From: Amanita rubescens
Lineage: Eukaryota; Basidiomycota; Agaricomycetes; Agaricales; Amanitaceae
Assembly: GCA_015039365.1 (NCBI GenBank)
Contig: WION01000067.1
Location: 1-64,000 of the forward strand
DNA length: 64,000 nucleotides
Reading direction: 5' to 3'
A program made the position numbers and the translations under genes. Positions 13,965-41,092 of this stretch are shown piece by piece (positions within the stretch are counted from its first letter, which is position 1; every line of letters begins with the position of its first letter). A model generated the notes under the pieces. That model did not search any database, was not told the origin of the DNA, and was given only the letters and a program-made list of their open reading frames with translations.

Positions 13965-14042
13965 TGCCCCATGGCTGAGTTGGTTACAGCGTCCGACTGT
14001 TATGCAATCGGAAGGTCGTGAGTTCGAGCCTCACTGGGGCAG
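13965..14042 (+). tRNA. tRNA-Asn (GTT) with a 4-nt intron
   Basis: The acceptor arms TGCCCCA and TGGGGCA pair over 7 bp with discriminator G. The D arm is GCTG/CAGC. The anticodon stem is TCCGA/TCGGA. The T arm is GTGAG-TTCGAGC-CTCAC. The anticodon loop is four bases too long. Removing TGCA (14003-14006), which sits exactly between positions 37 and 38 where nuclear tRNA introns lie, leaves loop CTGTTAA with anticodon GTT (13999-14001). The body closely resembles yeast tRNA-Asn. A T run follows. Confidence 0.85.
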
Positions 14043-16976: not shown

Positions 16977-17402
16977 GGTAAGCTCTCGCTGGTAGCGTTC
17001 CTGATCCTTCTTATTGTTTTTTTTGTTCCTCGCTTCTCGGGCATGTCATTCAAATTATTGTTGTTCGGATTCATTTTTTTGTTTACTCTATCCCACGCTC
17101 GCTTAGATCCCTGCTAATCTTATTCAAATCTATGCAATCATCATTCTTACACGTGGCCCTTTGAATGTAGCCTAAGCTAATACGGTCTCGCAGGCGTTTC
17201 AAGCTCACCGTCCACGTCTGATCCTTATTGTTCGGCGGCGTGGGTTACATCAATGGAGAATCGGGAACGCTAAGTATGACCGTACCTGTTGCTTAAGCTT
17301 CACGGACATTGCCGTTCAGTCTCATTTCCGCTCGAGTACTTATTGTTAGCTCTTCACAATGACTTTTGAAATTCGTGTCCGTCCTCGTAGGCCTTGACCA
17401 CC
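16977..17402. other. Promoter region of F-box gene A
   Basis: No gene. The last 120 bases contain TCATTTCCGCTC and TTATTGTTAGCTCTTCACAA, which recur twice upstream of F-box gene B (27790-27970). The duplication therefore includes the promoter. Confidence 0.6.
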
Positions 17403-19105
17403 ATGTCTTACGCCGCTTACCATCTATTACCCGCTGCCAATCGAGTGCCCTTCGAGCTATGGAGCATCATTTCGAACGAGTTTAGCGTTCAGGACCTCGC
17501 GAGGTACTGTGGGGTTAACCGACCACTGTTCGAAATTGCGATGGAGAAACTTTACCGACGGATGAAGGTCTGTTCATTTGACTGGCCTTGGTGCGAGAGG
17601 TTCGAAGACGTGTTGAGGTGAGCGTTCCGCAGTGGTTATCCTCAACGCGACTGACTTTGATCTCTCCTCCTCGCGTCCGTTTGGCAGTAAGCCCGTCGTT
17701 GCACCTCGTGTCAGAAGTCTGGGGCTGGACATGAGGTCAGCTTTGCACCTCACTAGGTCCGAACTCCGAGTAAGTGGGGCCTGTCTCGAGGCTTGTTTCG
17801 AGAATACCGTAATTAATAACTCGCGATCATTCAGGAAGAGCACTGCCGCTGCCACGGCAAGGATGCTGCGCGTTATACGGAAGAAGACATGTTTCGAGAT
17901 ATCGTTCGTGGTTTTGAGAGCATCGAGGCTCTTCAGTTGTGTTCCTGCCAGGTGCACTATGATTCCCTCCGGACACCGTTGTTGCACCAAACGTCGCGTC
18001 TTGCCAAAGTATTTGGAGAGATATTGCCGAAACTGAAAACTCTCAACCTCCAAGTCCATCCAGAGACGTTCATTGAACTCGTCGAGGCCTCGCCCTCGGT
18101 GACGCTACAATTGCAGGAGCTTTCCATCACCTTGGACTCCAGTCTATACAATAGCTCGGAGAGATTCTGCGAGTCGCTTGCGAAATTGATCTCCAAAGTC
18201 TCCCATTCTTTGACCAGCCTCAAGCTCATTGCACCCTACGACAACCTTCATGTGCCTCACCACCTCTTCCCGTTCCTTGGTCGCATAAGATTACCTCAAC
18301 TATCAAAGGTCTGGTTTGGACTACACACACGCCCTTACTACGATGCTGTGCCAAACTTGGATGGTCTAAACATGTTCCTGTGCAACCACGCCGCACAATT
18401 AGAAGAGTTGCATCTCACGTTCTATCAACGTGGGATGCTGTCACTTCCAACCCCATCTCTGTTAGAGTGGTATCAGCGGTGTTTCCAGGGCGTCCCTGTC
18501 GGCTCCAAGCTCAAGAATTTGTGGCTGGGGTCGTGTCATGCACAAGAGCTTGTCCCACTGTACACCTCTATTCTCGGGCCGGTTTTCCCCACCGTGACGT
18601 CACTGCTGTGCGTGAGGGCGCAACTCGACTTTGACCAACTCGAGGCGTTGTTATCGATTCCATCATGTGCTCAGCTCAAGTCGTTGGTGCTGTATTACAA
18701 GGGTGTCCTTAATCAGCAACTTGCGGATCTGTTCGCTGAAAAGTGCCCTGAACTTGAACAACTCTGCATTCGGTATGACAGGAGTACGTACAAGCAGGAG
18801 GTAGGCTCTCGAGTTCTTCGGTTCTTTGACATTGTGAATTTACCAAATCTTACGTTCAGGCTCCCTTCCAGAATGTGTTTAATTCGCAATCGTGGAAATC
18901 GATAGGAGAGAAGGACGAGTGGTCACACAAGGTGTTCCTTGTTTGGCCTCAAGGCCTCTATATGAAACTGGCACGGGGTTCATGCACCGAAGGCGTGGAA
19001 CAACTGATGCCCGCTGATATGCAGGTGTACGGCTATACGTGTGAAACCTGTGCAAAGCCAGAGGAAGATGAGTCAAGCAAGCGGAATCAATGCGTCGTTC
19101 AATGA
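17403..19105 (+). CDS. F-box/leucine-rich-type protein, copy A (502 aa)
   Basis: The model is join(17403..17617, 17688..17769, 17835..18800, 18860..19105), all in phase. The F-box-like segment is near residues 17-55 (RVPFELWSIISNEF then LARYCGVNRPLFE). The rest alternates hydrophobic strands and helices like a worn leucine-rich repeat (ALQLCSC, LKTLNLQV, LQELSIT, LTSLKLIA, LEELHLTF, LKNLWLGS, LKSLVLYY, LEQLCIRY). Such proteins recruit substrates to an SCF ubiquitin ligase. An intron at 18801-18859 was chosen over the stop at 18905 because it joins in frame to a further 82 codons that are also open in copy B. Copy B is at 28004-29689. Confidence 0.8.
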
Positions 19106-19962
19106 TTTTTGGCCACTTGTCCAAAGCTTGTTGGTTATCAATGTTCGTTAACGTTTACGAGTCACATATTTATCATTCTTTCGTACATTTTTACAGTATT
19201 ATTGATACTAGTCTAGGTCATAACCTGACTGTACGAGTATAAACCAATTTGCCGCGTAATCACCACACAAATTTAAAACGCACTCTAACGCCGATGGTCT
19301 GCTTCACATTTGCAGTGCTGAGTTGCCAAGGCTGATGGTTCCTCAACTATTTGCGGATAACGACTCCCTACAGCGTCATCGATAGAATCATCGTAACTTC
19401 TGAACGTGTTAAAGTCATATAAACCCCACTTCGAGGTGACATGAACGCCAGTTTCCGTGACCATGTGTCTGGCGGTCCATTGGAACTGCTGCCTTGTGTG
19501 AAGAGTTGCGGTCAGTCCCCACCGCGTTCATTGTACTAATGACATTATTTGTCAACCAGTAGTTACCTAATACGGCAGGTGTCAAATATTTGTCATTCAT
19601 ACACTTTGACTTGTCGACAAAGACTGGAAACCTCCTGGATCTGTCTCTATGCGAGTCTTATGCTTCAAATGGCCTTCAAGTTCAAGCACTTCTAATCGGG
19701 CTTCGGATTTCGTGGCCGTCGGTCGCATGACGACCTGGATGACGTATTAGTAAGACCTACGTCGTGAGGCCTGAGGGTTGTTGAAGAGTGCGTCCCTAGG
19801 AGTTATGATGACGGATGGTGAAGGGCCTCTTGTAAACTGGATGATACTGGCGTGGTAAGACCTGGTAAGACTCCTTACTTGTGGTGTTAAGTCTAAGCGG
19901 GTCTATAAGCGGCTGACAAACACCTTGCACGTCGTGGGTTTGGGTGGGTACTCCTGCTACAA
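19106..19962. other. Spacer between F-box A and pirin A
   Basis: No gene. 19106-19600 recurs in diverged form at about 21170-21660. 19800-19960 recurs at about 30350-30468 as the promoter of the second pirin copy. Confidence 0.6.
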
Positions 19963-20873
19963 ATGTGGACAATCGTCATAGTACTTATTGCGCTCACAGT
20001 CGCCCTCTTGTCTACATTGTACTCAACGATGACCTCGTCGGCTATCAGGATTCTGCCTCGTCTTAGCCAACTCCGTGGCCATGGTGACTATGGGTGGCTC
20101 AAGACATTCCACACATTCTCGTTTGTATCCTACCATGACCCCGCCCACGAATCTTATGGCCCACTGAGGGTCATCAACGAAGATCGGGTTTCGACAAAGA
20201 GGGGGTTCGACACCCATTCCCATCACGAGTTTGAAATCTTTTCCTACATTGTGTCCGGAGAGCTTCAGCAGTGAGCTTTCTTCTCGCTTCTATCTCACCC
20301 ATTTGACTGACTGGTATTTTTGACAGCAACGATTCGATGGGCAACACTGAAGTCCTTGGCCGAGGAGATATTCAGATGACCTCTACAGGGACAGGCATAT
20401 CACATTCCGAGTTTGCTCATGGTTCCGGACCTGTGCACTTTCTACAGATTTGGTCTACCCCGCACACGCGGGGTCTTAAACCAGCATATTTCACTCGACA
20501 TTTTTCCGATGCCGAGAAACTGAATAAGTGGGCGCGGGTGGTAGCTCCTGTCGGTTCGGAGGGCGTTGACGATAAACGCGAGTCGACCGGGCCTGCGCCT
20601 GTTCACAGCGCGTTGACGATGTACGCGAGTCTGATTGAAAAGGGTTTGAAGCTTGAACGCGAGATGAAGAGCAAGAAAGGTTACGTGCATGTGGTGATGA
20701 CAAGTGGATATGAAGAAGGTGCCGGCGAAGGCGCGGCGGTGCGACTAGCGAGCGGAGGCGAGACTGTGACACTCCGCGAAGGAGATGGAGCATATTTGGC
20801 AGGGAAGGGAGGGCTTGTGGTTGAGAACGTCGGGGAGTCGCGGGCCGAGGTGGTGGTGTTTGAACTTGACTAG
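19963..20873 (+). CDS. Pirin-family bicupin, copy A (284 aa)
   Basis: The model is join(19963..20270, 20327..20873), in phase. The pirin N domain follows a hydrophobic leader: residues 2-21 (WTIVIVLIALTVALLSTLYS) resemble a signal anchor, unusual for a family that is normally soluble. The metal-binding pattern HSHHEFE with a later His of QHND and the GTGISHSEF loop are present, as is the second cupin with YFTRHF and the YVHVVMTSGY strand. Family members bind iron, and some have quercetin 2,3-dioxygenase activity; the substrate here is unknown. It is part of the F-box + pirin block copied at 28-31.4 kb. Confidence 0.85.
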
Positions 20874-21044
20874 TAGTAGTAGCAACGGACTCTGGAGCGT
20901 TACATATTGTCACATCCTGTTTTCTTACCATCACCTTCGTTCCCTAGATTTACAATCCTTTTCTACTTCCTTCCATAATAACATCTTTCAAATCCTCGAC
21001 CTTGGCCCAAGATAGCTTTCGCCATCACGGAAATTGATCGAACA

Positions 21045-22574: not shown

Positions 22575-25500
22575 ATGGCTGAATCAAGTAGGCTGACTGA
22601 ATTTGTACATCATAGTATTTAACCTGTAATTTATACAGATGTGGGGGATATGGAAATACTCCAACAGCGCTACAACTGTCCCTGTTTTCGTATCCTTGTC
22701 ATAGGCAGGGCCAATGCAGGCAAGACAACTATTCTTGAGAAGGTCTGTGGCGCAAAAAAGGGAACAACACCTATCATATATAATGAGAATGGTAAGTTGA
22801 ACAAAAGCAAGCAGCTGCTTGTAAATAACCAGTACATTTAGATGAACAATTGATGCCTTCCGAGATAGATTTGATCCCCTCAGCTGAGGTAAGTTGAATG
22901 GTTCAAGTTCATAATGGTTACCACACTGGACAACAACTGTTCTTCAGAGAGGCATGCACAATATTGAGCATCAGATTACATACCCTGGAAGCAACTTCAT
23001 CTTCCATGACTCTAAAGGTTTTGAAGCTGGTGCAATTGAGGAGATAAAAGATGTTTGGGAATTCATTGAGAAACGGTCCTCTAAAACTGAGTTGAAGAAT
23101 CAACTACATGTTATCTGGTAAAAATCTGATATTGATTGTTTACATGACCAACTAACAAGAAGCCTTTCTTAGGTATTGCATACCCATGGATGGCCCTCGC
23201 CCTCTGTTAGATGCAGAACTTCAGTTCTTTAGTAAAGGGACAGGGAAAGGTAAGTTCTGAGGTCAATTGTCTAATGTCATTTGGATATGTTGCTGAGCAT
23301 AGCTGGTTACCTCTTGACTTTTCTGTTCTTCCCATTAAACAAGACCCATTAAAATCATTGTTACAGTTCCCTTGGTGACTATTTTCACAAAATTTGATGG
23401 TCAAATCATCCAAGAATATGGTAAATTGGATGAAACCAAACATGAAGATAAGTGGGACAAAGCCAAAGAAAATGCTGAAGCTACTTTTCAGAGAGTTTAT
23501 CTTCCTAAAGTTTTGGATACTGAGCACCCTCCAAGATCCTATGTACGATTGCAAGGTGAGAGTAGTGAACATATCTGGCCTTGCACAGGATTAAATGACT
23601 TTGTTGAGCAGATATGGACATTCCAGAGAGCAACTGTCCTGAATTGACTGAGAAGACAGCTGATGTAATTGACAACACTAGTTTATATCAGCTATTTGTT
23701 TCAACACAAATGAACAACCTCGATCTCTGTGTTAAGGCAGCACTGAAGTGAGCATTGCATTTTAAATATTGATTTTTGAGTTCAAACTTGGATATTATTA
23801 GATATGCTTTTGATGGAAGTAAACCTGCACTGTGGGATAGTTTCTTCAGGGTTCTTTGCAGGTTTCCACACTACTGGGTAGATTGCAAAATGCTTTGATG
23901 TGGACATTCAAATTACTGACTCAAAAAAGGTTGATAGCAATGTAAGTTTTCTTAAACTCTGGTGGCCCTGGATGACATTCAAAGCAGTTTGTAAGTTAAG
24001 TTTCTGATAAAGGGCTTGGTTGGCTGATATTATGTTTAGGATGTATGTTTTATTTCTGTGCATGGGGCATCATCCGATTTTGTGCTAAATAGCAAGATAC
24101 CACAAATGTCAGTAACCATCATCTGTTCTGAATCTGGATTTGATAATAGATAACAGTGGGTAAGTGACATGGTTGTTTGTGAATCTCTGATGTTATGGTA
24201 TAATAGACTGTGAGTGTAACATGAAATCCATTATTTGTCGCATCTTATCACACCACCACCAGCTAGTGAGTGAATATCTAGAATTAATCACCTAAGCAAT
24301 TTCTGATATCACCTTCAAATACCATGACAAACAGGTAAGTGATACCAGTGAAGCAAGTTCATTTATTATATCTTATCTAATTATCAAAGCATGTGAGTTG
24401 TCTTTGCTGATATGTATATGACCTAACCACAACTTATAATTAATTCATGACAGGGAGTGAGTAATCTTTTACTACTGTCAAGCAGCCTCACAACATCTTG
24501 TTCATGAATAACAGAAAGTGGGTGGCCCTGTAGTTCATCTTCCTGAGGCAGTCTCACTACATTTTATGTCCAACAGGGAGTGAGCAATGATGCTATACTG
24601 CCAGGCAGTCTCACTGCATCTTACTGTTGACCAACAGAAAGTGAGTGATATGCACTTTTTTAAAAATTATTCAGCCTTGTGACCTCTAATGATGAACAGC
24701 TTGTCAGTGCACCACTTTTTTGCTGCCAATTCATCATGTCCTTATGATATTACCAACAGAAAGTGAGTACACTTTGTTTCCATTATTCATCTTTGTGACC
24801 TCTATCTCATGATGAACTTCAGCTTGTTAGTGCATCGCTTTTTTGCTATCAATTCATGTCCTCATGCCATTACCCATAGACTGTGAGTAACAATACATTT
24901 TTCCAGTACATCATGTGTCAATCCATGATCAACAGCTTGTGAGTAATACTGCACTAGTATTTTTAGCCACACAGTATTATCAAATGCCATCTCATAACAA
25001 ACAGTTTGTGAGTAGTCATGTATTTTAAAAATATAAGAAGTAATAGTATCTTGTGTAATGATAAACAGGGAGTGAGTGGCACTCTCTTTCTTCTACCACA
25101 CAATCTTATCACTTCTTCTCATCAGCTTGTCAGTGATACTCCACTTTTCAAGTTATGTAGTTCCATCAAATCTCATGATATGACACCCAAATAGGATGTG
25201 AGTATGGCATCTGCCATTCATCACCACAATCACATCAGAGATAATCATGTTGCTATTAGATGGTGGGTTGTGCCATACCATTTTCTGTCATACAATCTCA
25301 TAGAATCACAATCACATTCTATGGGCAACAGTTTGTGGGTGATACTCTGCTTTCATCAGTGAAACAGCCTTCATTTCCTGTCTTATACCCACCAGCATGT
25401 TAGTGATGTTACATTTTTCTCAGTCTGGAAATCTCATCTCATATCATCTCCCCACAAAAGAATGTAAGCAATTCTGCTCCCTTTTTGAAGTCTCATTCAC

Positions 25501-27230
25501 ACATACATACTGTGACCAACAGTATGTAAGTGACATCATAGCCGAGCCTTCCACAAGCATCTCACTTTGTGCCAAAGTTTGTGAGTGACACAATACACTT
25601 GTTTCAGCAGTCTCATCACATACATACATACATATTATATATCATATGAAGAATGTGAATGGCCTTCTTCCCTCTCAAGCATTCCATCGTGTCTCATGCC
25701 ATAACCTTCAGATTGTAAGGTTTTGGAAGCCTCATGTTTGAGTCCTATCACATACATGCACATTTAATCAACAGGATGTGAGTGATAGTATCTTTGTTAG
25801 CCAGGCAATGGTCTTCATCATAACTACTAGACAGTGAGTTGCATTTACATTTTACTATTATACATGAGTCTCATCAAATATGTTGCATGAATAAAAGAAA
25901 GTGAGGGGCATGGCCTTTTTTTTTTTTTAAAAAAAAAGGCACCTTCACTCATCTATGTATTCCTGTGTTTAACTAACAGCGAGTAAGTGACATTTGATTT
26001 TCAATAGTATGATCCCATCTGAACACATGATGCCACCAGTTTGTGAGTGTACTGTATTGCACTGCCATATTTTGTCACACCTCATCATGACCAATAGAAT
26101 GTGGGTAATATAGTACTATGATACTTTACTGCTAGGGCACATTTTTCACCTCTTACCCCATGACCAACAGTGTGTAAGTGACACTCCATATTCCTTTTAT
26201 AGCTAGACAGTCTCCCCACACCCATTATCAGCTTGTGAGCAATGTTAAACCTTTACCAAGCAGTCTCATCAGTGATCACATCTTTTTGTGTAATTAACAG
26301 CTTGTGAGTTTCTTTGTTTATAGTATATACCCTGCTTTATGTCTAACATGATCAACAGGATGTAAGTGACACATGTTTTCTGCTAGACATCTCTGAATCC
26401 CATAGCCAATAGCTAGTGAGACATTTCTGTTCTTTGTGCAGTTAACCTCACTTCTGAATCCTCATCTCATTATGCACTGGCACAGAGAGTGAGTGACATT
26501 TTCAGTTTGGCAGAGTCTCACTTGGTCTCATTCTGCTTCAAAAAGACTGTGGGTATCATTGTGCTTTCTTCCAGACAGTTGCCTCATAAGTCATACCACA
26601 ACTAACAGCAAGTAAGGCATACAGCAACCTTCCCTATACTACCTAATTTCTGGTGCTAACATTATGGTCTATCTAGATTGTAAAATACCATTGGTTTTGC
26701 TGAAGTTGCTTCTTCTCAATGTTTGACTTTCTAGGTGAGTGGTGGGAATGTAGAATATATAGTAATAAAGTTACTGATGCACATGTCAGCTTGTGGGTTA
26801 ACATCTGATCTGAACTTCATTTTTGACAAGTCTTTGTTAATCCACAGAATGAACTTTCCCCTCTGTTTGGTGGTGGTGGTCCCTGGACAAGACTCTCAAA
26901 GAATGTAAGAATTAATGTTATACTTCTATCCCTGTGTATGCATTTAACAGTGTTTTAATCAGCCTACATCTTGCCGATTTTTAGTTGGTAAGGTATTCTA
27001 CTTTATTCAATTCTATATGCTAAGTACAGTATCTCTAAGCAATTATTATCATTGTCAAAAAATCATTCTGGATAAAAGAACCAATTCATCAAGCAATTGC
27101 AGATGCTTACAAGGAGTTCAAATATGAAGGCTATGCAGAGAAACTTGTGATTGATATCACCTCTGTGTCCATCCCATCTAAACATGAGGATTTGCTTGCA
27201 TACCTTTATAATTACATTATCCACATTTGA
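22575..27230 (+). CDS. P-loop GTPase with a 43-member single-codon exon array (433 aa if all included)
   Basis: Exons 1-9 are 22575..22587, 22639..22791, 22842..22888, 22948..23117, 23173..23249, 23367..23555, 23612..23747, 23802..23877 and 23930..23941. The array follows (next entry), then 26848..26904, 26951..26987 and 27040..27230. Every joint is in phase and no frameshift is needed. The G domain shows a P loop GRANAGKTT, the G3 motif DSKGFE and the G4 motif TKFD. This places it among TRAFAC-type GTPases such as fungal AIG1/septin-like P-loop proteins. After the array come ELSPLFGGGGPW, a hydrophobic segment near AIIIIVKKSFW and a helical tail ending LLAYLYNYIIHI. Composition is much more AT-rich than the flanks. 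The gene sits between the two F-box + pirin copies. The donor at 23878 is weak. Function is unknown; GTP binding is a confident inference. Confidence 0.75.
23942..26847 (+). repeat. Micro-exon array: tandem introner-like units of about 62 nt separated by 3-nt exons
   Basis: Each unit reads as an intron (GTGAGT or GTAAGT ... often TGACCAACAG) followed by exactly 3 nt before the next donor. Candidate 3-nt exons start at 23988, 24040, 24157, 24207, 24263, 24390, 24454, 24515, 24577, 24638, 24700, 24760, 24823, 24880, 24936, 25005, 25069, 25126, 25195, 25260, 25332, 25396, 25461, 25523, 25578, 25652, 25712, 25775, 25831, 25898, 25980, 26040, 26098, 26171, 26232, 26301, 26359, 26413, 26486, 26546, 26609, 26677 and 26790. 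A 15-nt exon is at 24093-24107. Zero-length AG|GT junctions are at 24334/24335 and 26734/26735. Spacing is 50-82 nt. Many units share a middle like CAGTCTCATCAC, so they look related by descent. Confidence 0.85.
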
Positions 27231-28003
27231 TGGTATGATCTCCTCTTTAAATCCAGATAAAATTTATGGCTGCTCATTATGCTTTCCAAAATAGGGTAAA
27301 AATTGCACCACAATAATTTTTTGCTCCTAGTCTAGGTGATGATTGCATTTGTGTTGTACAATACTAGGTTTCCTTTCTTCCCTATGCCTTCCCCTTTGAA
27401 TACAAGTTTCAAGTTTCCACAGTTTCATTTTTACTCAATTTCTTCTTATTGCATATGATGCCCATCTGATCAGACTAATCCAAAGTCACTGTCAGCTATG
27501 TATAATTACCATTTATCAAATGGAGATTTTGTTGACTTGAAACTAAATATTGCTTTTGAGATTCCAATATTGATTTTTGGCTATTGGCATTAGTGTGGGA
27601 TCAATCTGAATACTAGTACTGCCAACTTTGTCCCGCTGCTCCCACGTCGATTTAACTGTTAGAGATGTACTAGGAGGAGTTAATTATTAATTATATAAAA
27701 TATGGCGTCAGGGCGTCACTACCCATATTTAGCCTGGTTACCCGCTATATATAGTACCCGGACTTTTACACCAATAGCTCTGTCCGAGTCTCATTTCCGC
27801 TCATTCGCTCGACTTATTGTTAGCTCTTCACAACAAGTTTTGAATTCGAGTCCGTTTTCGTTGAACTTTCCGTACTACCTGTTGCTTAAGCTTCACGGAC
27901 ATTGCCGCTCTGTCTCATTTCCGCTCATTCGCTCACGCTCGAGTACTTATTGTTAGGTCTTTTCAATGAGTTTTGAAATTTGTCGTCGTCGGCTCTAGCC
28001 ACC
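27231..28003. other. 3' flank of the GTPase gene and promoter of F-box gene B
   Basis: 27231-27640 is AT-rich and holds no gene. Around 27700 composition returns to that of the flanks. 27780-27970 contains two tandem copies of the promoter motif seen once before F-box A (TCATTTCCGCTCATTCGCTC, then TTATTGTTAG). Confidence 0.55.
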
Positions 28004-29689
28004 ATGTCTTATGCTGCTGACCATCTACTGCCCGCTGCCAATCGAGTGCCCGTTGAGATTTGGAGCGTGATTTCGAACGAGTTTAGCGTTCAGGACCTCG
28101 CGAGGTACTGTGGCGTTAACCGACCGTTGTTCGAAATCGCGATGGAGAAACTTTACCGACGGATGAAGGTCTGTTCATTTGACTGGCCTTGGTGCGAGAG
28201 GTTCGAAGACGTGTTGTGGTGAGCGTATCGTTCAATGCTCAATATGGCTGGCTCTGACCTCTGCTCCTCACCTCCGTTGGCAGTAATCCCATCGTTGCGC
28301 CGCGTGTCAGAAGTTTTGGGTTGGACATGAGGTTAGCTTTGCATCTCACTAGGTCCGAACTCCGAGTGAGTGGGCCTGTCTCACTGAAGCTTGTTTTTGA
28401 AAATACCAACACACGGTCATCTAGGAGGAGCACCGCCACCGCTATAGCAAGGATGCTACGCGTTATACGGAAGAAGACATGTTTCGAGATATCGTTCGTG
28501 GATTTGAGAGTATCGAAGCTCTTCAGTTGTGTTCCTGCCAGGTGCACTATGATTCCATCCAGACACCGTTGTTGCACCAAACGTCGCGTCTTGCCAAAGT
28601 ATTTGCGGAGGTTTTGCCGAAACTGAAAACCCTTAGCCTCCAAGTCCATCCCGAGACGTTCATTGAGCTCGTCGAGGCCTCGCCCTCGACGCTACAGTTA
28701 CAGGAGCTTTCCATTACCTTGGACTCCGGTCTCTATGATAGCTCGGAGGGATTCTCCAAGTCGCTTGCGAAGTTGATCGCCAAAGTATCGCATTCTTTGA
28801 CCAGCCTCAAGCTCATTGCACCCTACGACAACTTGCATGTACCTCGTCACCTCTTCCCGTTCCTTGGCCGCACGAGATTACCTCACCTATCAAATGTCTG
28901 GTTTGGACTACATACCTGCCCTCCCTACGATACTGTTCCAAACTTGGATGGCCTAAACATGTTCCTGTGCAACCATGCTGCACAATTGGAAGAGTTGCAT
29001 CTCACGTTCTATCAACACGGTGGGATGCTATCACTTCCTGCGCCGTCTCTATTAGAGTGGTATCAGCGGTGTTTCCAGGGCGTCCCTGTTGGCTCCAAGC
29101 TCAAGAGTTTATGGCTCGGGTCGTGCCATCCACATGAGCTCGCCCCACTGTACACCTCTATTCTCGGGCCGGTCTTCCCCACTGTGACATCACTTCTGTG
29201 CGTGAGGGCGCAACTCGACTTTGACCAACTCGAGGCGTTGTTATCGATTCCGTCATGTGCCCAGCTCAAGTCGTTGGTGTTGTATTACAAAGGTGTCCTA
29301 AGTCAGCAGCTTGCAGATTTGTTCGCTGAAAAGTGTCCTGAACTTGAACAACTCTGCATTCGGTATGACAGGAATACGTGCATGCAGGAGGTAGGCTCTC
29401 AGGTTCTTCGCTTCTTTGACATTGCAAATTTACCGAGTCTTACGTTCAGGCTCCCTTCCAGAACGTGTTTAATTCGCAACCGTGGAAATCGATAGGAGAG
29501 AAGAACTCGGAGTGGTCACACAAGGTGTTCCTTGTCTGGCGCCAAGGCCTGTATATGAAACTGGCACGGGTTTCATGCACCAAAAGCGTGGAACAACTGA
29601 TGCCCGTGCAGGGCTATATTTGTGAAACCTGTGCAAAGCCGGAGGAAGATGAGTCAAGCAAGCGAAATCAACACTGCGTCTTTCAATGA
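28004..29689 (+). CDS. F-box/leucine-rich-type protein, copy B (500 aa)
   Basis: Close paralogue of copy A with identical exon layout: join(28004..28218, 28284..28365, 28425..29390, 29450..29689). Exons 1-3 have exactly the same lengths as in copy A (215, 82 and 966 nt). The F-box segment (RVPVEIWSVISNEF) and the LRR-like strands are kept, with only scattered substitutions and balanced codon indels, so both copies look functional. The intron at 29391-29449 is shared. The function is substrate recognition for an SCF ligase by family inference. Confidence 0.8.
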
Positions 29690-29925
29690 CTTTTGGCCAC
29701 TTGTCGATATCCGTAAGAGTCGTCCTTTCGTATTTTACAGTATTTTTTATCCCAGTCTAAGTATAACCGTTTACCAATATCACCACACAAATTTGAGCAT
29801 CCCTTCGCGTTCGCTGTACCGATACCGTCCGAGACCCCGAGCCGCAGTAAGTTGTTCAACCACATATGCCGTGCATCCTCAAAGTCCGTCCTCCGCTTTT
29901 CTAATTTTGGGAGGCTTTACTACTC

Positions 29926-30236
29926 GGTCGCTACTCGGTCGCTTCATTGCTGTAATATCAATCTACTAAGACATGAGGCGTGCCGAGAACACATTTACTC
30001 CCCCTAATCGGCCTTGTAATCGTTGACTATTTATGACAGAAAGAAGCGCTCGCCGCATGAGTGCTACTCGGTCGCTCTCATTGCCGTAATATTAATTCGG
30101 GATACGGTGCTGAAAACACATTTATTGTTGACTATTTTTGAGCGCTCGCCCCATGAGTGCTATGTACTCGGTCGCTCTCATTGCCGTAATGATAATACGG
30201 GTGCGGAAAATTCATTTACTCCCTATAATCGGGCTT
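29926..30236. repeat. Three diverged tandem repeats of about 90-120 bp
   Basis: A unit with CTACTCGGTCGCTCTCATTG, then CCGTAAT and an ACATTTACTCCC-like end occurs near 29926-30011, 30056-30140 and 30145-30236. It lies between F-box B and pirin B and is not coding. Confidence 0.6.
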
Positions 30237-30468
30237 CGGCCGTACCTGAGTCAGTCGCATCGCGATCTGGATGACGTAAGACTCGGAGGTACCTGCTAGT
30301 AGATTCGTCAGAGGTTAACGTTGTCGAAGGTGCGTCCTGGCCTTGGATTCTGGAATAACGATGACGGATGGTAAAGGGCTCATGTGATGGCGTGGTAAGC
30401 GGGTCTATAAGCGGCTGACAAACACTTTGCTACGTCGTGGGTTCGGGTGGGTACACTTGCTACAAATG

Positions 30469-31377
30469 CGGACTATCGTCGCAGTACTTATTGCGCTCGC
30501 AATCGCTGTCTTGTCTACATTGTACTCAAGGATGACCTCGTCGACTAGTCAAGATTCTGCCTCGTCTTAGCCAAAACCGTGGCCATGCTGACCATGGCTG
30601 GCTCAAGTCATTCCATACATTCTCGTTTGCTTCCTACTATGACCGCAGCCACGAAGGTTATGGCCCACTGAGGGTCATCAACGAAGATCGGGTTTCGACA
30701 AAGAGGGGTTTCGACACTCATAACCATCGCGAGTTTGAAATCTTTTCCTACATTGTCTCCGGAGAGCTTCAGCAGTGAGCTTTCTTCTCGCTTCTATCTC
30801 ACCCATTTGACTGACTGGTATTTTTGACAGCAATGATTCGATGGGCAACACTGAAGTCCTTGCCCGAGGAGACATCCAGATGACCTCTGCAGGAACGGGC
30901 ATATCGCATTCCGAGTTTGCTCATGGTTCCAAGCCTGTGCACTTTTTACAGATTTGGTCTGTCCCGCACACTCGGGGTCTTAAACCAGCGTACTTTACTC
31001 GACACTTTTCCGATGCCGAGAAACTGAATAAGTGGGCGCGGGTGGTAGCCCCTACCGATTCGGAAGGCGTTGACGATAAACGCGAGTCGACCGGGCCTGC
31101 GCCTGTTCACAGCGCGTTAACGATGTACGCAAGCCTGATTGAAAAGGATTTGAAGCTTGAACGCGAGATGAAGGGCAAGAAAGGTTACGTTCACGTGGTG
31201 ATGACAAGTGGATATAAAGAAGGTGCCGGAGGAGGCGCTACGATACGACTGGCGAGCGGAGGTGAGACTGTGACACTCCGCGAAGGAGATGGAGCATATT
31301 TGGCAGGAAAAGGGGAACTTGTGGTTGAGAACGTCGGGGGGTCGCGGGCCGAGGTGTTGGTGTTTGAACTTGACTAG
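30469..31377 (+). pseudogene. Pirin-family bicupin, copy B, with a 1-base insertion
   Basis: The second copy of the pirin gene keeps the same intron (donor near 30777, exon 2 from 30831 to 31377). Relative to copy A it has one extra base at about 30544-30551, after the hydrophobic leader. This puts the leader frame onto a stop (TAG at about 30568) before the cupin domain. The rest of exon 1 and all of exon 2 are open and highly similar to copy A, so the break is recent or a sequence error. The only in-frame downstream Met is in exon 2 and would give half a protein. Confidence 0.75.
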
Positions 31378-31481
31378 CAACGGAAGCGTTACATCGTGTC
31401 ACTTTTTGTTTTCTTTACCATCAACTTCGCTCCCTAGATTTACAATCCTTTTCTACTTCCTTCCATAATAACATCTTTCAA

Positions 31482-32599
31482 ATGCTCGACCTTGGCCCAA
31501 GGCATCATCGCGTGGCAAAACGACAGGGTCCTCCAGGAGGCGCGACTTCGCAAGCGACACCACCCTCAACCCCAACCGGGCCTTCTACAACCCAGTCGAA
31601 CCCGACCGGCAATCCTACGTCGACTCAGACAGCAAACAGTACTTCGAAGGTTTGCCTTGTGGGTGACATCCTTTGTCAATCCCCTTCTTCGTCGACGTCG
31701 GCTAGCTCGACGAAGTCAGCCTCCTCCACCTCCAGCCATGCTCAGACTACATCCAGCGTTTCGACTGTACGTGTGAAACGCGTCAGGTTTATATTTTTCA
31801 CCGCTAACGACGGAAACTAGAGTGCACCTCCCGCACCATCTCTACCCCCTCTCACGGGTTCTTTGACATCCACTGGCCTGACAACCATCAGTTCGGGTTC
31901 GGCAACTGCCACTTCGAGCGCGACCAACAGTGACTCGGGACCTATTGCCGGTGGCGTCATTGGTGGCCTCTTTGCGGTAGCTCTTGTTGGCATGCTCATC
32001 TCGTCCCTTCTCGTAAGCACTTCCGTGACCTTGGGTCAGTGGCTCTCACCAACCCCAAACAGCGCCGGTGGCGTCAAAAGAGAATCGACAAGGCCATCTT
32101 TGACTCGACCGACTTTCGTCGGTCAGCTGTCGTCCTTGATGACGCGTCTGCTGAGAATATTGCTCAGAAACAACACTACAACCCGCGGCCACCCACGATG
32201 ATCGAGAAACGCATTGCGGGAGGCCAACAGCGTTCGTTCGGGGGCGGTACCCCTCCTCCTCCCCAGGCTTATGGAGGATACGGACAACCATTCTATCCAC
32301 CTCAGTCAATGCAGAGAGGCTATTATCCTCAGCAGGCTGTTCATGTACCAGGTGGATACAATCAGATGTACGCAGGAGGTTACGGTCCGCAGGTCGCTCC
32401 GCCATCACGTACCCAAACGCCACTCCACCAGCAGGTTGCCCCGCCATTACGTACACAAACGCCACTCCATCAGCAAGACCCGATGGGTCTCCCAAATCCA
32501 TTCGGTGCTCGTTCACCAACCGCGATGCCTCCAGCTGAAAGGCATTCCAATCGACTCCATGGTCATGCCAGGTGCTATGGGAAGACGGAGCGGCGGTGA
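31482..32599 (+). CDS. Single-pass Ser/Thr-rich membrane protein, second (337 aa)
   Basis: The model is join(31482..31766, 31821..32012, 32063..32599), in phase. It has the same plan as the 12447-13792 protein: a Pro/Ser/Thr-rich outer part of about 150 residues, a Gly-rich membrane helix (from IAGGVIGGLFAVALVGM to ISSLL), the basic stop RRWRQKR at the exon joint, and a Pro/Gly/Tyr/Gln-rich tail with two near-identical units of QVAPPxRTQTPLHQ. In the last 70 bases a +1 shift near 32525 gives a more family-like end (MVMPGAMGRR to PPTYG, stop at 32621), so the annotated C terminus may be wrong. The start at 31482 is uncertain. A 20-bp scrap of this gene's start survives after pirin A (21000-21012). 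Confidence 0.65.
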
Positions 32600-37506: not shown

Positions 37507-40500
37507 ATGGCAAATGAACTCAGATTCGGCGCCCTAGAAACAGGGAATCGCTTGGTCCTAACTTCTGGAGCTTTTCACGCTGCGCATGATTTTACAATTA
37601 ATAACAGCACTTTCAATGATGTTCACGGAGATTTCGTTCGTAACTCTCACCGAGTCATCGCCTGTCCAGATCATCCGAGCTGATATGGTCATGCTCAGAT
37701 ATATGCTCAGAATTACTATGAAGCTCCTACGACTGCAAATAGAACACCATCACCCCCTCTTGCATTGCCGAAACACTCTAGCACACTATTCACAGGTCGT
37801 GACACATATCTGGGAAAGCTGAGAGAACACTTCGGACTTCGTGCTTCTCCGAATGATCTTGCTCGGCGATCATTTCTGTTATATGGTATGGGAGGCATTG
37901 GTAAAACCCAGATCTGCCTTAAGTTTATGGAAGATTCTGAAGACCAGTGACTATCTGCATCTAATGACTGTGTGGTCTTATGCTTATATCAAACATAGGT
38001 TCTCTCATCTATTTTGGATTGATGCTTCTTCTGAAGCCACCATGACATCAGCTATCAGACAGATAGCAAAGGAACATGGCTTGCAAGCCAGCAACAATGC
38101 CAAGCCTAGTGTTGTAACAGTGATGAAGTGGATCTCATCTCTCAAAAATGATTGGTTGATGGTATTTGATAATGCAAATCATGATCCAGATGTTGTTGAA
38201 AAGTTTATTCCTCCTGGAAATAAGGGAAATATCCTTATTACTAGCAGAAATATGTCAATGGGGAGAGTTACTTCCAACAAGTCTATGGAAGTGGAAGAGA
38301 TGAACAAGGAAGAAGCTGTCTCTCTGCTTTTGAAAGCAGGAAATGTAGATGTGATGGACAAAGAATCTGAAGAGATGGCCATGCAAATTGTCTCTGCATT
38401 GTTTTATCTGCCTCTGGCCATTGATCAAGCTGGTTCTTATATTTTGTCCTGTCAATGCAGTCTCAAATGACTATTGGCAGTTGTACAAAAGAAATTACCA
38501 GCTTTTACTGGATGATAGTACATTTAAAGGTGCTTCAGACTATGGGAAGAGTGTATATGGAACATGGGAGATTTCAATTCAGGAGATTGAATCAAGAGCA
38601 AAGAACCAATCTAAGGCTGCCCAAAGTGCTATAAGCCTCCTCAAATTTATTCCTTTCCTTCATCATGTAAACATTCCTGAAAATATTTTCAAATATGCTG
38701 TGCATGGGGGTTAGAGATAGAGATACAGAGGAGGCATATGAACTGCCAATGTTGCTTTCCTTGTTGGATTCTGATGATCTGCAATTGAATGAATCAGGTG
38801 AATGGGATGAACTCAGGTTTTATCAGGGGATACAAGTCCTGCAATCATTCTCTCTGATCAAGAAGAATATCAAGATCAAGATGTATTCTATCCATCCTTT
38901 AACACAGTCATGCTGTCAGGACAGAATACCTGGGGCAGAAAAACAATCTAACTGCATCAAAACAGCTGCACTCTTAACATGTGCAGGCATATTTTCTGAA
39001 CAATACAGAGGAAAATCACACTCTGTTGGAGGCACTTGTCACACACATCAAAGCAAATAAGGCATTTGCAATTAAGCTGGGAATAAAAGAGGACTATTAT
39101 GATGATCAATTCTCATGCTATGCTGCACTTTATTTCCAGACTGGATATTGGAATCAAGGAGAAGAGCTACAAAAAGAAGTCATGAGAATGAGGAAAGAAA
39201 AACTGGGATTAAATAATATGATGACTTTGAGTAGCATGTTATTTGCAGCTTTATTCTATAACAGGCTAGGCAATTGGAAAGAAGAGGAGCTGCTATTGCT
39301 GGATGCTATTAAGATACAGATGAACACATTTGGATTTGAGCATGAAGATACTCTGGAAACTCGAGCACAGGCTAGCTGTATCATACATGAATCAGGAGAG
39401 ATTGAGAGAAGCAGAGAAATTGGCCATAAAAGTATATGAAACAAGAAAGGAAACATTAGGTGCTGATCACCATGACACTCTTATGAGCATGAATACCATG
39501 GCTATGATATATGGAAAGCAAGGAAACTGGAAAGAGGCAGAAGAATTACAGGTGCTAGTGATGGAGACATTCAAGGCAAAATTGGGGCCAGATCACATGA
39601 AGACACTTCAGATCATGGTTTATCTGAATAGGCACATATGGCAATAGAGAAAAGTTGAAGGAAGCAGAACAACTGCTTATTCATGTGATTGATATGTTCA
39701 AAGTCAAACTAGGTCCTGATCATCCATCCACCCTTTACAACATAACAAATCTAGGAGTTACATACAGAGAGCAAGGAAGATTAAATGAGGCTCAAAAGGT
39801 TTTGGAAGAGGCACTAGAGACATGCAAGGACAGATTGGGACCTAGCCATCTTATCACTCTTGGGACAATGCGCAATTTGGCCATGACATACAAGGCACAG
39901 GGTATGTTAAAGGAGGCATTAGACCTGCAGGTTATTGTCATTGAGTCCATGATGGAGACATTAGGTGCAGAACATTCTGAAACAGTCATGAGCACCATGG
40001 ATCTAGTGGTGATATATGGAGAACTAGGAAAATGGAATGAAGCAGAAAAAATGTTGGTTCCCTTAATAGAAGTTCTGAAATCATCATTAGGGCATCTCCA
40101 TCCTTCTACATTAAGGAGCATGACACACCTGGCAGACATGTACATTGAACAGGAAAAGTGGAATGAGGCAGAGAAATTACTGATACAGGTGATGGGTGCT
40201 AGAAAAGAGAAATTAGGTTCTGGAAACCCTGGTACTCTGACTGTTATGCATAATCTTGCAGAGGTCTATGTGAGGAAAGAAGAGTGGAGTAAAGCAGAGG
40301 AATTACAATTGCAAATTGTAAATGTTGGGAGGACAGAAATGGTGATGGACCACCTACAGATTCTTGCAAGCATGATGGATCTAGCAAAAACATACTTCTC
40401 CCAAAAGAAATGGTCCAGTGCAGAGCAACTTTTGATAGAGACAATGTCTTTGGGGAAAGACAAGCTGGAACCAGATGAATCCAGTGGTACTTGATGTCAT

Positions 40501-41092
40501 GGGTAAATTAGCAATGATATATATGGCTCAAGACAAGTTCAAGGACTGCAGAAGATCCTGCAGGATCATGTGGTCAAAGTACAGAGAGAAAAGGCTCCAA
40601 ATGATCTAGAAACTATTATCAATATGTCCAACCTGGCAAGGATTTATAATATGCAAGGGAAATGGGATCAGGCAGAAGAGTTGCTAATACATGCAGTGGA
40701 AGTGTGCAAATTTGATCAAGGACCTTAATGATGCATACACACTTAGAAGCATGAAAAACTTGGCAGAAGTATACCAGAGTCAAGAGAAATGGGATAGGTC
40801 TGGAGAGATCATGGAACAGTTGCTCAAGGTGGTAAAAGTTGAGATGGGACCAGAGCATCCTGAAACTCTGAGCATCATGTATCATTTAGCAATGTCATAC
40901 AGGCATCAAGGAAAGTTGAAAGAAGCAGAGAAGCTGGCAGTTCATGTATCAGATGTACTAACAGCGCTTGTGGGGGCAGGACATCCACTTACTATTGAAA
41001 ATGAGGAAAATCTGGAAATAATTAGAAAGGAGATGACAAAGAAAAATAAGGGATCAATCTTGAGTAAAATATTTAGGCACAAAAAGCACTAG
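37507..41092 (+). pseudogene. NLR-type protein: NB-ARC ATPase plus kinesin-light-chain-like TPRs, eight single-base frame breaks
   Basis: Exon 1 (from 37507) has FTINNSTFNDVHGDF, a stretch found before NTPase domains of Agaricomycete NLRs. Exon 2 (37699..37946) has TLFTGRDTYL and the Walker A GMGGIGKTQ. Exon 3 (from 37999) has the Walker B WLMVFDNANHD, NILITSRN and LPLAIDQAGSYI (GLPL-like). About ten TPR units of 42-44 residues follow (for example DHxxTLxxMxNLAxxYxxQGKWxEAE). NLRs sense non-self and trigger cell death or defence. Frames must move +1 near 38456, 38704, 38992, 39373, 39625, 40483 and 40727 and -1 near 40548. Between breaks frames of up to 279 codons are free of stops. It is a young pseudogene or carries uncorrected insertions. 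Composition is AT-rich like the GTPase gene. Confidence 0.75.

Follow-up and report, generated by a model that had tools for sequence, protein, structure and literature searches.

A GTPase gene of Amanita rubescens with a predicted array of one-codon exons, and its relatives with constant introns and variable codons

The window analysed here, 64,000 bases long, comprises bases 1–64000 of contig C618 of the Amanita rubescens assembly (75.7 Mb, 786 contigs). On its plus strand, from an ATG at 22575 to a stop codon at 27230, lies a GTPase gene that we model as 56 exons and 55 introns with an open frame of 429 amino acids. The introns of the gene are short (median 58 nt, range 46–124, n = 55). Between 23942 and 26847 they enclose an array of exons, nearly all of a single codon, through which the parts on either side (22575–23941 and 26848–27230) are joined in phase 0 into a single open frame. 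In what follows, WIN is the window's own copy of the gene, L009–L037 are paralogous loci that were fetched, and P-numbers are database proteins. The initial annotation had proposed a frame open from the G domain to 27230. Phase 0 and the 429 residues bear this out, except that a further exon of 25 nt (26963–26987) is required ahead of the last one to hold the frame; P0021 agrees with it. The exons outside the array are:

22575..22587, + strand, exon 1 with the start codon (MAES); GT/AG borders, open frame
22639..22791, + strand, exon 2 with the P-loop GRANAGKT
22842..22888, + strand, exon 3
22948..23117, + strand, exon 4, G domain
23173..23249, + strand, exon 5, G domain
23367..23555, + strand, exon 6 with the FTKFDG motif; 150 copies scored in its own genome
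23612..23747, + strand, exon 7; the deposited P0032 (262 aa) terminates here
23802..23877, + strand, exon 8, its last residues FPHYW
23930..23941, + strand, 12-nt exon VDSN
26848..26904, + strand, 57-nt exon NELSPLFGGGGPWTRLSKN
26963..26987, + strand, 25-nt exon PTSCRFLV plus one base; equivalent in P0021, ATCCRILIA
27040..27230, + strand, last exon, C-terminal helical part and stop; homologous exon in paralogs

The homologs of the last exon are 40–42% identical in L026, L015, L014, L011 and L016, and less so in others. Pfam reports MMR_HSR1 on exons 1–9 slightly over the cut-off. Among 28 family members it lists four families, with MMR_HSR1 in 11 members, and neither NACHT nor ankyrin was found in the 28. 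The joined model of L026 matched no Pfam family at E 0.001.

How is the array itself built? The model has 43 exons of one codon, a single exon of 15 nt and a pair of zero-length junctions, at which an acceptor directly abuts a donor; a guided spliced alignment to P0021 supports it:

23942..26847, + strand, the array as a whole
23988..23990, + strand, one-codon exon F
24040..24042, + strand, one-codon exon D
24093..24107, + strand, 15-nt exon QDTTN; DTTN is present in P0021 too
24157..24159, + strand, one-codon exon W
24207..24209, + strand, one-codon exon T
24263..24265, + strand, one-codon exon L
24333..24336, + strand, zero-length junction CAG/GTAAGT, recursive-splice-like; also placed in L009; P0021 lacks a residue between L and H
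24390..24392, + strand, one-codon exon H
24454..24456, + strand, one-codon exon G
24515..24517, + strand, one-codon exon K
24577..24579, + strand, one-codon exon G
24638..24640, + strand, one-codon exon K
24700..24702, + strand, one-codon exon L
24760..24762, + strand, one-codon exon K
24823..24825, + strand, one-codon exon L
24880..24882, + strand, one-codon exon T
24936..24938, + strand, one-codon exon L
25005..25007, + strand, one-codon exon F
25069..25071, + strand, one-codon exon G
25126..25128, + strand, one-codon exon L
25195..25197, + strand, one-codon exon D
25260..25262, + strand, one-codon exon M
25332..25334, + strand, one-codon exon F
25396..25398, + strand, one-codon exon H
25461..25463, + strand, one-codon exon N
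25523..25525, + strand, one-codon exon Y
25578..25580, + strand, one-codon exon F
25652..25654, + strand, one-codon exon N
25712..25714, + strand, one-codon exon I
25775..25777, + strand, one-codon exon D
25831..25833, + strand, one-codon exon T
25898..25900, + strand, one-codon exon K
25980..25982, + strand, one-codon exon R
26040..26042, + strand, one-codon exon F
26098..26100, + strand, one-codon exon N
26171..26173, + strand, one-codon exon C
26232..26234, + strand, one-codon exon L
26301..26303, + strand, one-codon exon L
26359..26361, + strand, one-codon exon D
26413..26415, + strand, one-codon exon L
26486..26488, + strand, one-codon exon R
26546..26548, + strand, one-codon exon T
26609..26611, + strand, one-codon exon Q
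26677..26679, + strand, one-codon exon I with a weak donor; omitted by unguided parses, placed by guided alignment; I in P0021
26733..26736, + strand, zero-length junction TAG/GTGAGT, recursive-splice-like; same array end in 9 of 13 other loci
26790..26792, + strand, one-codon exon L

A script check found AG directly before and GT directly after all 43 of the three-nucleotide slots, so that every one of the facing acceptor–donor pairs proposed initially was recovered, and the 15-nt exon and the two zero-length junctions were located as well. The proposed spacing of 50–82 nt holds if each zero-length junction counts as a step. The array introns measure 46–79 nt, with two of 124 and 110 nt if those junctions are left uncounted. 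At the end of the array the parser also sets a zero-length junction in L009, L011, L013, L014, L015, L018, L019, L026 and L028; it placed none there in L016, L017 and L022 (the parse of L021 is unreliable).

The motif YAGNNNGTRAG occurs 33 times on the two strands of the window, against 6.2 expected and a maximum of 13 in 100 shuffles, and 26 of the 33 matches sit on the plus strand at 23985–26616. Over the window and 20 loci, YAG and GTRAGY are separated by exactly 3 nt 572 times, and by any other distance from 0 to 30 nt no more than 23 times; on the opposite strand the 3-nt separation occurs once.

If these slots are exons, do their codons appear in proteins? A first protein search found 734 proteins, 120 of which were listed; the short-contig proteins among them come from ‘jgi’ sources, environmental contigs. 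With residues 270–429 of the window's model as query, P0021 was the sole protein listed (E 3.3e-77), 74% identical across the entire segment. Its run WTLHGKGKLKLSLFGHDIFHNYYNLNTRRFSEILNIRSEIL aligns without a gap to the last 41 slots, 27 of them identical, with a score of 163 against a maximum of 38 in 100,000 shuffles. We take P0021 for a cDNA because its contig, at 1,669 nt, is too short for a gene with such introns (4.7 kb here). Within the stretch that matches exon 4, P0021 lacks 17 G-domain residues, which may reflect alternative splicing of this piece.

Two further pairs behave similarly. In guided spliced alignments, identical one-codon exons number 28/42 for WIN and P0021, 39/47 for L028 and P0015, and 36/38 for L033 and P0059; the respective scores of WIN, L028 and L033 are 431, 531 and 518, against maxima of 276, 325 and 330 with 20 shuffled queries each. 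Under strict site filters the L033 result was poorer. The unguided parser gives 50/62 identical columns and 49 one-codon exons for L028 and P0015, in a parse confined to exons in multiples of three (an unconstrained run chose a shifted frame), and 45/63 identical aligned positions for L033 and P0059. In exon 6, P0059 and L033 agree at each of the 60 residues, so that they represent practically the same gene. A region search with residues 290–478 of P0015 matched only P0015 itself, and a search of the plasmid collection gave no match. Whole proteins set against the loci with tblastn gave nothing in one run and exons merged across introns in another.

A parser using splice-site matrices, with no rule concerning stops, assigned 551 three-nucleotide exons to 12 paralogs, 38–59 in each. 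Two of the 551 are stops, where about 92.5 would be expected from the use of T as first base in the other slots. The 551 include L021, whose parse is unreliable in its second half (shifted frame), and a probability attached to this count is not to be read literally, the loci being related (L014, L015 and L026 are close copies). Third bases in the slots are A 313, T 197, G 38 and C 3; in 624 codons taken from ordinary exons in two of these genes they are A 166, T 228, G 125 and C 105. Glycine is GGA in 41/41 slots and CGN arginine is CGA in 47/49, while XTA, which would form TAG with the next base, is found in 8 slots vs 116 for XTT. In our reading the slot codon is chosen for its amino acid first and for splicing second. 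Most parsed paralogs share the array head x-W-F-E-Q-G-K-K-E-T-(D)-R-E-I. Two assignments made in the course of the parsing were given up: the zero-length site put ahead of W in several paralogs is an artefact, since P0001 and P0005 show a 30-nt exon at that place, and a 10-nt exon assumed near the end of L026 is probably of the 25-nt type seen in P0021.

Might the array instead be a decayed tandem repeat inside one long intron, its motifs relics and its three-nucleotide exons unused? The 50–82 nt spacing, together with the exact 65- and 56-bp periods found in paralogs, does resemble a minisatellite, and the deposited A. rubescens model P0039 joins both sides without the array. Slot-coded residues nevertheless stand in order in the short-contig proteins, and stops are depleted in the slots. 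The alignments of P0021, P0015 and P0059, taken with that depletion, rule out a long intron with a decayed minisatellite as far as we can judge; we find it scarcely credible.

Several observations tell against translation of the array. A TGA slot is present in two of the 12 parsed paralogs (L014 and L022), the raw motif list made without the parser has 5 stops in 721, some of them in overlapping or stray matches, and L033 has one stop among its 33 motif slots. P0021, at 74% identity, is a relative and not the own transcript of the window's gene; the cDNA nature of the short contigs is deduced from their length and intronless frame; and a guided alignment is steered by its own query. The misfits between L033 and P0059 comprise about 16 residues after FPHYW, an internal PTKGI stretch in the query and a few single residues. 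In WIN/L010 and L009/L010, whose overlaps are short, 1/28 splice dinucleotide positions differs. As to the TGA slot of L014, close copies of L014 have CGA or CAA in its place. In a gene with a TGA slot, skipping of one unit would delete the stop without a frameshift.

We conclude that the array is very probably translated: the three-nucleotide exons appear, from sequence comparison, to be joined in relatives, and the stretch of some 43 residues that separates the G domain from the C-terminal helical part would be added one codon per splice. The early suggestion of a micro-exon gene in which residues are written singly gains support from the short-contig proteins, from the depletion of stops in the slots and from the conserved W-F-E-Q-G-K-K-E-T-D-R-E-I series.

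Might the window's own copy nevertheless be a decaying pseudogene within a functional family? Its array is irregular, and it lacks the acceptor of one slot that paralogs keep (TTT after W, in an alignment inspected by eye). Against this, its frame is open over 56 exons, its C-terminal exons match P0021, and compared with L009 its splice dinucleotides are kept, 1 of 160 positions differing. We regard decay of this copy as very unlikely.

How do public gene models treat such a gene? The deposited A. rubescens protein P0032 (262 aa) is the window's gene as far as the end of exon 7, and the public annotation halts there, at the place where the difficulties start. In a crude motif search of the 120 listed proteins, 75 show an FP-like pair followed by H, N, Q or S past residue 220. 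Sixteen of the 75 extend more than 60 residues past the motif (11 from short contigs, 5 from deposited gene models); the remaining 59 stop at most 53 residues past it, in Amanita, Mycena, Galerina and Hebeloma alike. The deposited models P0039, P0100 and P0113 reach the C-terminal part with few residues between. The annotation of other Agaricomycetes may have been defeated by the same gene structure; that some species lack the array is equally possible.

The initial annotation spoke of one such GTPase gene. The gene is real, and it belongs to a family. A protein query with the G-domain exon gave at least 150 scored copies from 258 candidates, haplotype copies included, and a 161-base exon query gave 40 scored places in the assembly from 180 candidates. 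Twenty places were fetched first (L009–L028); the later ones (L029–L037) were partly picked for arrays, and some of the loci are close copies. At least 24 motif slots on the gene's strand are found in 25 of the 29 fetched loci, and in 17 of the 20 fetched first. Among the later ones L029 has 59 motif slots, L030 67, L031 51, L032 43, L033 33, L035 43, L036 51 and L037 45. Four loci fall below 24: L034, a more distant member, has 8 slots in the 3.9 kb taken, L010 has 6 (its contig ends), L020 has 7, and L027 has just 2, both on the strand opposite to the gene. The locus recurs in L009 (C776) over 9.0 kb and in L010 (C333) over 4.6 kb, each time with about 97% identity to the window; these copies are either haplotypes or recent duplications. 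The arrays of L023 and L024 are related to that of L016 and break off; L024 resumes after about 2.9 kb without slots, an insertion-like arrangement.

Across the family the head and tail of the arrays are conserved, and the middle is variable in many members. In many of these the middle has a fixed 65-bp period (56 bp in L030) and one intron sequence. The first 30 bases of this constant intron occur at 1,621 places in the assembly with at most 2 mismatches, and the reversed control occurs at none. Defining constant-intron units as those with at most 6 mismatches of 62, we obtained 243 units in 12 of 15 loci, the near copies L016 and L031 both included. At the three positions of the slot heterozygosity is 0.52, 0.69 and 0.47, whereas in the intron it averages 0.058 and nowhere exceeds 0.21. 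The 243 units carry 25 codons and no stop, with C or G as first base in 224 and A or T as third base in 234. Even the 89 units whose intron is identical to the letter, from 6 loci, carry 14 codons. L030 (C8:76500–81500), with its 56-bp unit, has an intron whose first half is common to the 65-bp family; two intron subtypes are spread there over units with many different codons.

What could hold the introns constant while the codons vary? One answer is a neutral ratchet, in which the arrays serve nothing: in-phase duplication of units is cheap, and the codons drift in a tolerant protein linker. Every unit is frame-neutral, the first half of the slot-coded part has low structural confidence, and in older arrays slots change at near the intron rate (2.5% vs 3.5% between WIN and L009), all as such a process would have it. 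Pure drift, however, predicts introns at least as variable as slots, and in the 243 units the slots stand at 0.47–0.69 against 0.058. Because slot heterozygosity lies so far above that of the intron, something acts on the codon alone. Neutrality is a possible account that we consider doubtful.

A second answer invokes introner-like insertion, a mobile 62-nt intron having entered between the codons of a pre-existing ordinary exon. This would account for identical introns with different codons and for the 1,621 places that match the first 30 bases of the intron almost exactly. It also predicts that codon series inherited from such an exon can be aligned. L029, L036 and L037, whose flanks differ by 1.0–1.6% on the 5′ side and 1.6–2.3% on the 3′ side, share one 62-nt intron (109 introns, 23 mismatches to the consensus in 6,758 bases), and their middle codon series fail to align with each other. 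On these grounds we reject simple intron insertion into an inherited exon for the young arrays. The insertion of an intron in phase 0 behind every codon would, besides, go unexplained. Of 10 intron clusters formed by the first 100 of the 1,621 places, moreover, 8 lie 1.5–5.3 kb behind a family G-domain exon on the same strand; the remaining two are C3 and C12. In its introner-like form we judge the explanation quite improbable.

Nor can point mutation, if it runs no faster than in the flanks, produce the pattern of L029, L036 and L037. Is each unit's codon then rewritten by a dedicated process of directed mutation? Slots that differ almost wholly between copies with near-identical introns invite the idea, as does the restricted alphabet of first and third bases, which may be a splice-site preference. 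In close copies of the older arrays, slots and introns differ by 2.5% and 3.5% in WIN/L009, as already given, and by 2.8% and 4.6% in L015/L026; in L014/L015, 1/105 slot and 12/2,531 intron positions differ. These pairs WIN/L009 and L015/L026 lend no support to a raised mutation of slots. The 444-position count of such pairs leaves out L012/L013, which show no differences, L014/L026, which is not independent of two pairs already included, L020/L014, with 7 slots, and the short L010 overlaps. Its slots were picked by the motif in whichever sequence came first in a pair, a choice that mildly favours conservation. Pairs among L016, L023 and L024 (14–16% intron, 16–29% slot and 15–25% splice-site differences) were dropped for unequal extent and bad alignment.

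Directed mutation is opposed also by signs that units are copied. Repeated four-codon words number 7 in L029 (0.64 in shuffles), 4 in L030 (0.33) and 1 in L037 (0.05, p 0.05); L016 has one (p 0.08) and an excess of three-codon repeats over shuffles (p 0.003). No four-codon word recurs in the remaining 14 arrays tested. Such repeated blocks show duplication or exchange of several units. In ten arrays, the pairs of units with the most similar introns have the same codon in 9–28% of cases and other pairs in 7–17%; sharing is more frequent among the similar-intron pairs in 9 of the 10 and equal in L018. Units are, on this evidence, partly copied whole. Directed mutation we hold to be unlikely. Rapid turnover seems to belong to the arrays whose introns are still alike, as unit exchange predicts.

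We therefore put forward, tentatively, a diversification by codon cassettes. The heritable unit would be a codon together with a constant, spliced-out intron. The intron would give the homology for genome-wide exchange between arrays, the protein would keep the variable residue, and GTPases resembling the immunity-related GTPases (IRG) might rebuild a variable segment residue by residue, frame unbroken, as a germline repertoire. We hold this proposal possible, at somewhat less than even odds, and two observations sit awkwardly with it. In older arrays slots change no faster than introns, which gives no sign of ongoing directed change. Transcript support for the constant-intron arrays is thin: P0005 carries the head followed by a variable stretch, but its end is of another kind.

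How might such an array be spliced and kept variable? Each short intron would be recognised as a unit, by intron definition. U1 and the acceptor-binding proteins are unable to sit together 3 nt apart. With acceptor and donor at that distance, neighbouring sites would not both be occupied at once, and the introns must therefore leave in some order. Ordered removal would amount to a recursive-splicing ratchet with a 3-nt step. The zero-length junction at the array end fits a ratchet that keeps the splicing steps short; alternatively, it may be part of one longer intron. Because all units begin and end in phase 0, gain, loss or skipping of a unit changes one residue only. In young arrays the units of constant intron and codon would be replaced through unequal exchange, both inside one array and from array to array. 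The introns would be made uniform by this turnover and the variety of codons kept, most likely through selection for a variable helical segment.

What might the protein do? IRG (p47) proteins are a vertebrate interferon system. Searched with Foldseek, the predicted structure finds its best matches in them, over the G domain and the helical domain; the comparison of structures re-examines the chains that Foldseek itself had ranked highest, and other families may fit as well. Sequence identity to the IRG chains is 9–12%, and no PDB chain was matched in sequence by the family profile at E 0.001. Against the comparison stand the middling strength of the fold match and the low confidence of the slot-coded residues as far as 313. 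The protein may be an IRG-like GTPase whose array-coded segment serves self/non-self recognition; this is the weakest step of the argument, and we hold it doubtful.

Elsewhere in the window, duplicated stretches flank the GTPase gene at 17283–21011 and 27876–31501 (87% over 1.87 kb and 90% over 1.12 kb). They hold 338-aa open reading frames, one of which had no match in Pfam, and pirin genes. At 37841–41092, some 10 kb away from the GTPase gene, an NLR-type gene encodes NB-ARC followed by tetratricopeptide repeats, and a tRNA-Ile with anticodon TAT lies at 13965–14042.

How does the array compare with known systems? The initial annotation knew of no fungal gene with dozens of one-codon exons, and here it must give way to the nank (NACHT-ANK) family of truffles, which, as far as citing papers convey, has dozens of codon-sized exons (Iotti et al. 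2012, via PMC4986451, PMC3689799, PMC9815663, PMC10197012) and for which alternative splicing of the microexons is reported; in the Amanita family no two isoforms of a single gene were found. As those papers describe it, that family too is an expanded fungal one with dozens of 3-bp exons, and its C-terminal part is thought to be diversified by them; it encodes NACHT-ANK NLRs in an ascomycete, whereas the family described here encodes GTPases in a basidiomycete. Codon-sized exons by the dozen are thus already known in fungi, to judge from the same citing literature, and the Amanita case adds another phylum and another protein family. No description of arrays of this kind in basidiomycete GTPases was found in the literature searched, subscription papers lying mostly outside it. 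Nor was any found there of the constant-intron, variable-codon state, the truffle paper being represented by those that cite it.

The micro-exon genes of schistosomes have exons mostly of 15 bp (range 6–81, or 3–81 in the abstract), 10–20 per gene, with introns of 0.1–5 kb (PMC10526429). The Amanita genes resemble them in having many small in-frame exons and in the trouble they cause for automatic annotation, and differ in that their exons are of 3 nt, some 40–60 in a row, with introns of about 60 nt. With recursive splicing they have in common AG/GT junctions with no exon between, so that an array would act as a ratchet; in Amanita, however, the steps carry a codon and the introns are short rather than very long. 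Introners provide the likeness of near-identical introns in many copies, here the 1,621 places. TALE repeats consist of constant units with a few hypervariable positions. The WD-repeat NLRs of fungi are described as having near-identical units, variation at chosen positions and exchange of units (PMC9815663). All of this has its counterpart in the constant-intron arrays, except that in TALE and WD repeats the constant part is protein, whereas here it is a spliced-out intron and only the variable residue is kept.

What does the array mean for the biology of this family? It tests how small an exon a spliceosome handles and the order in which crowded introns are removed. It also offers a reason why many deposited family proteins end near the same place, as the array would escape gene finders. 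In the young arrays the evolution of intron and codon is parted more sharply than in any case known to us. They open two questions to testing: what keeps the codons varied as the introns become uniform, and whether receptor-like GTPases of fungi are diversified in this manner. Alongside the truffle nank genes, this would be a second lineage using codon-sized exons. If true, the codon-cassette system would be the repeat logic of TALE proteins and fungal NLRs at the resolution of a single residue.

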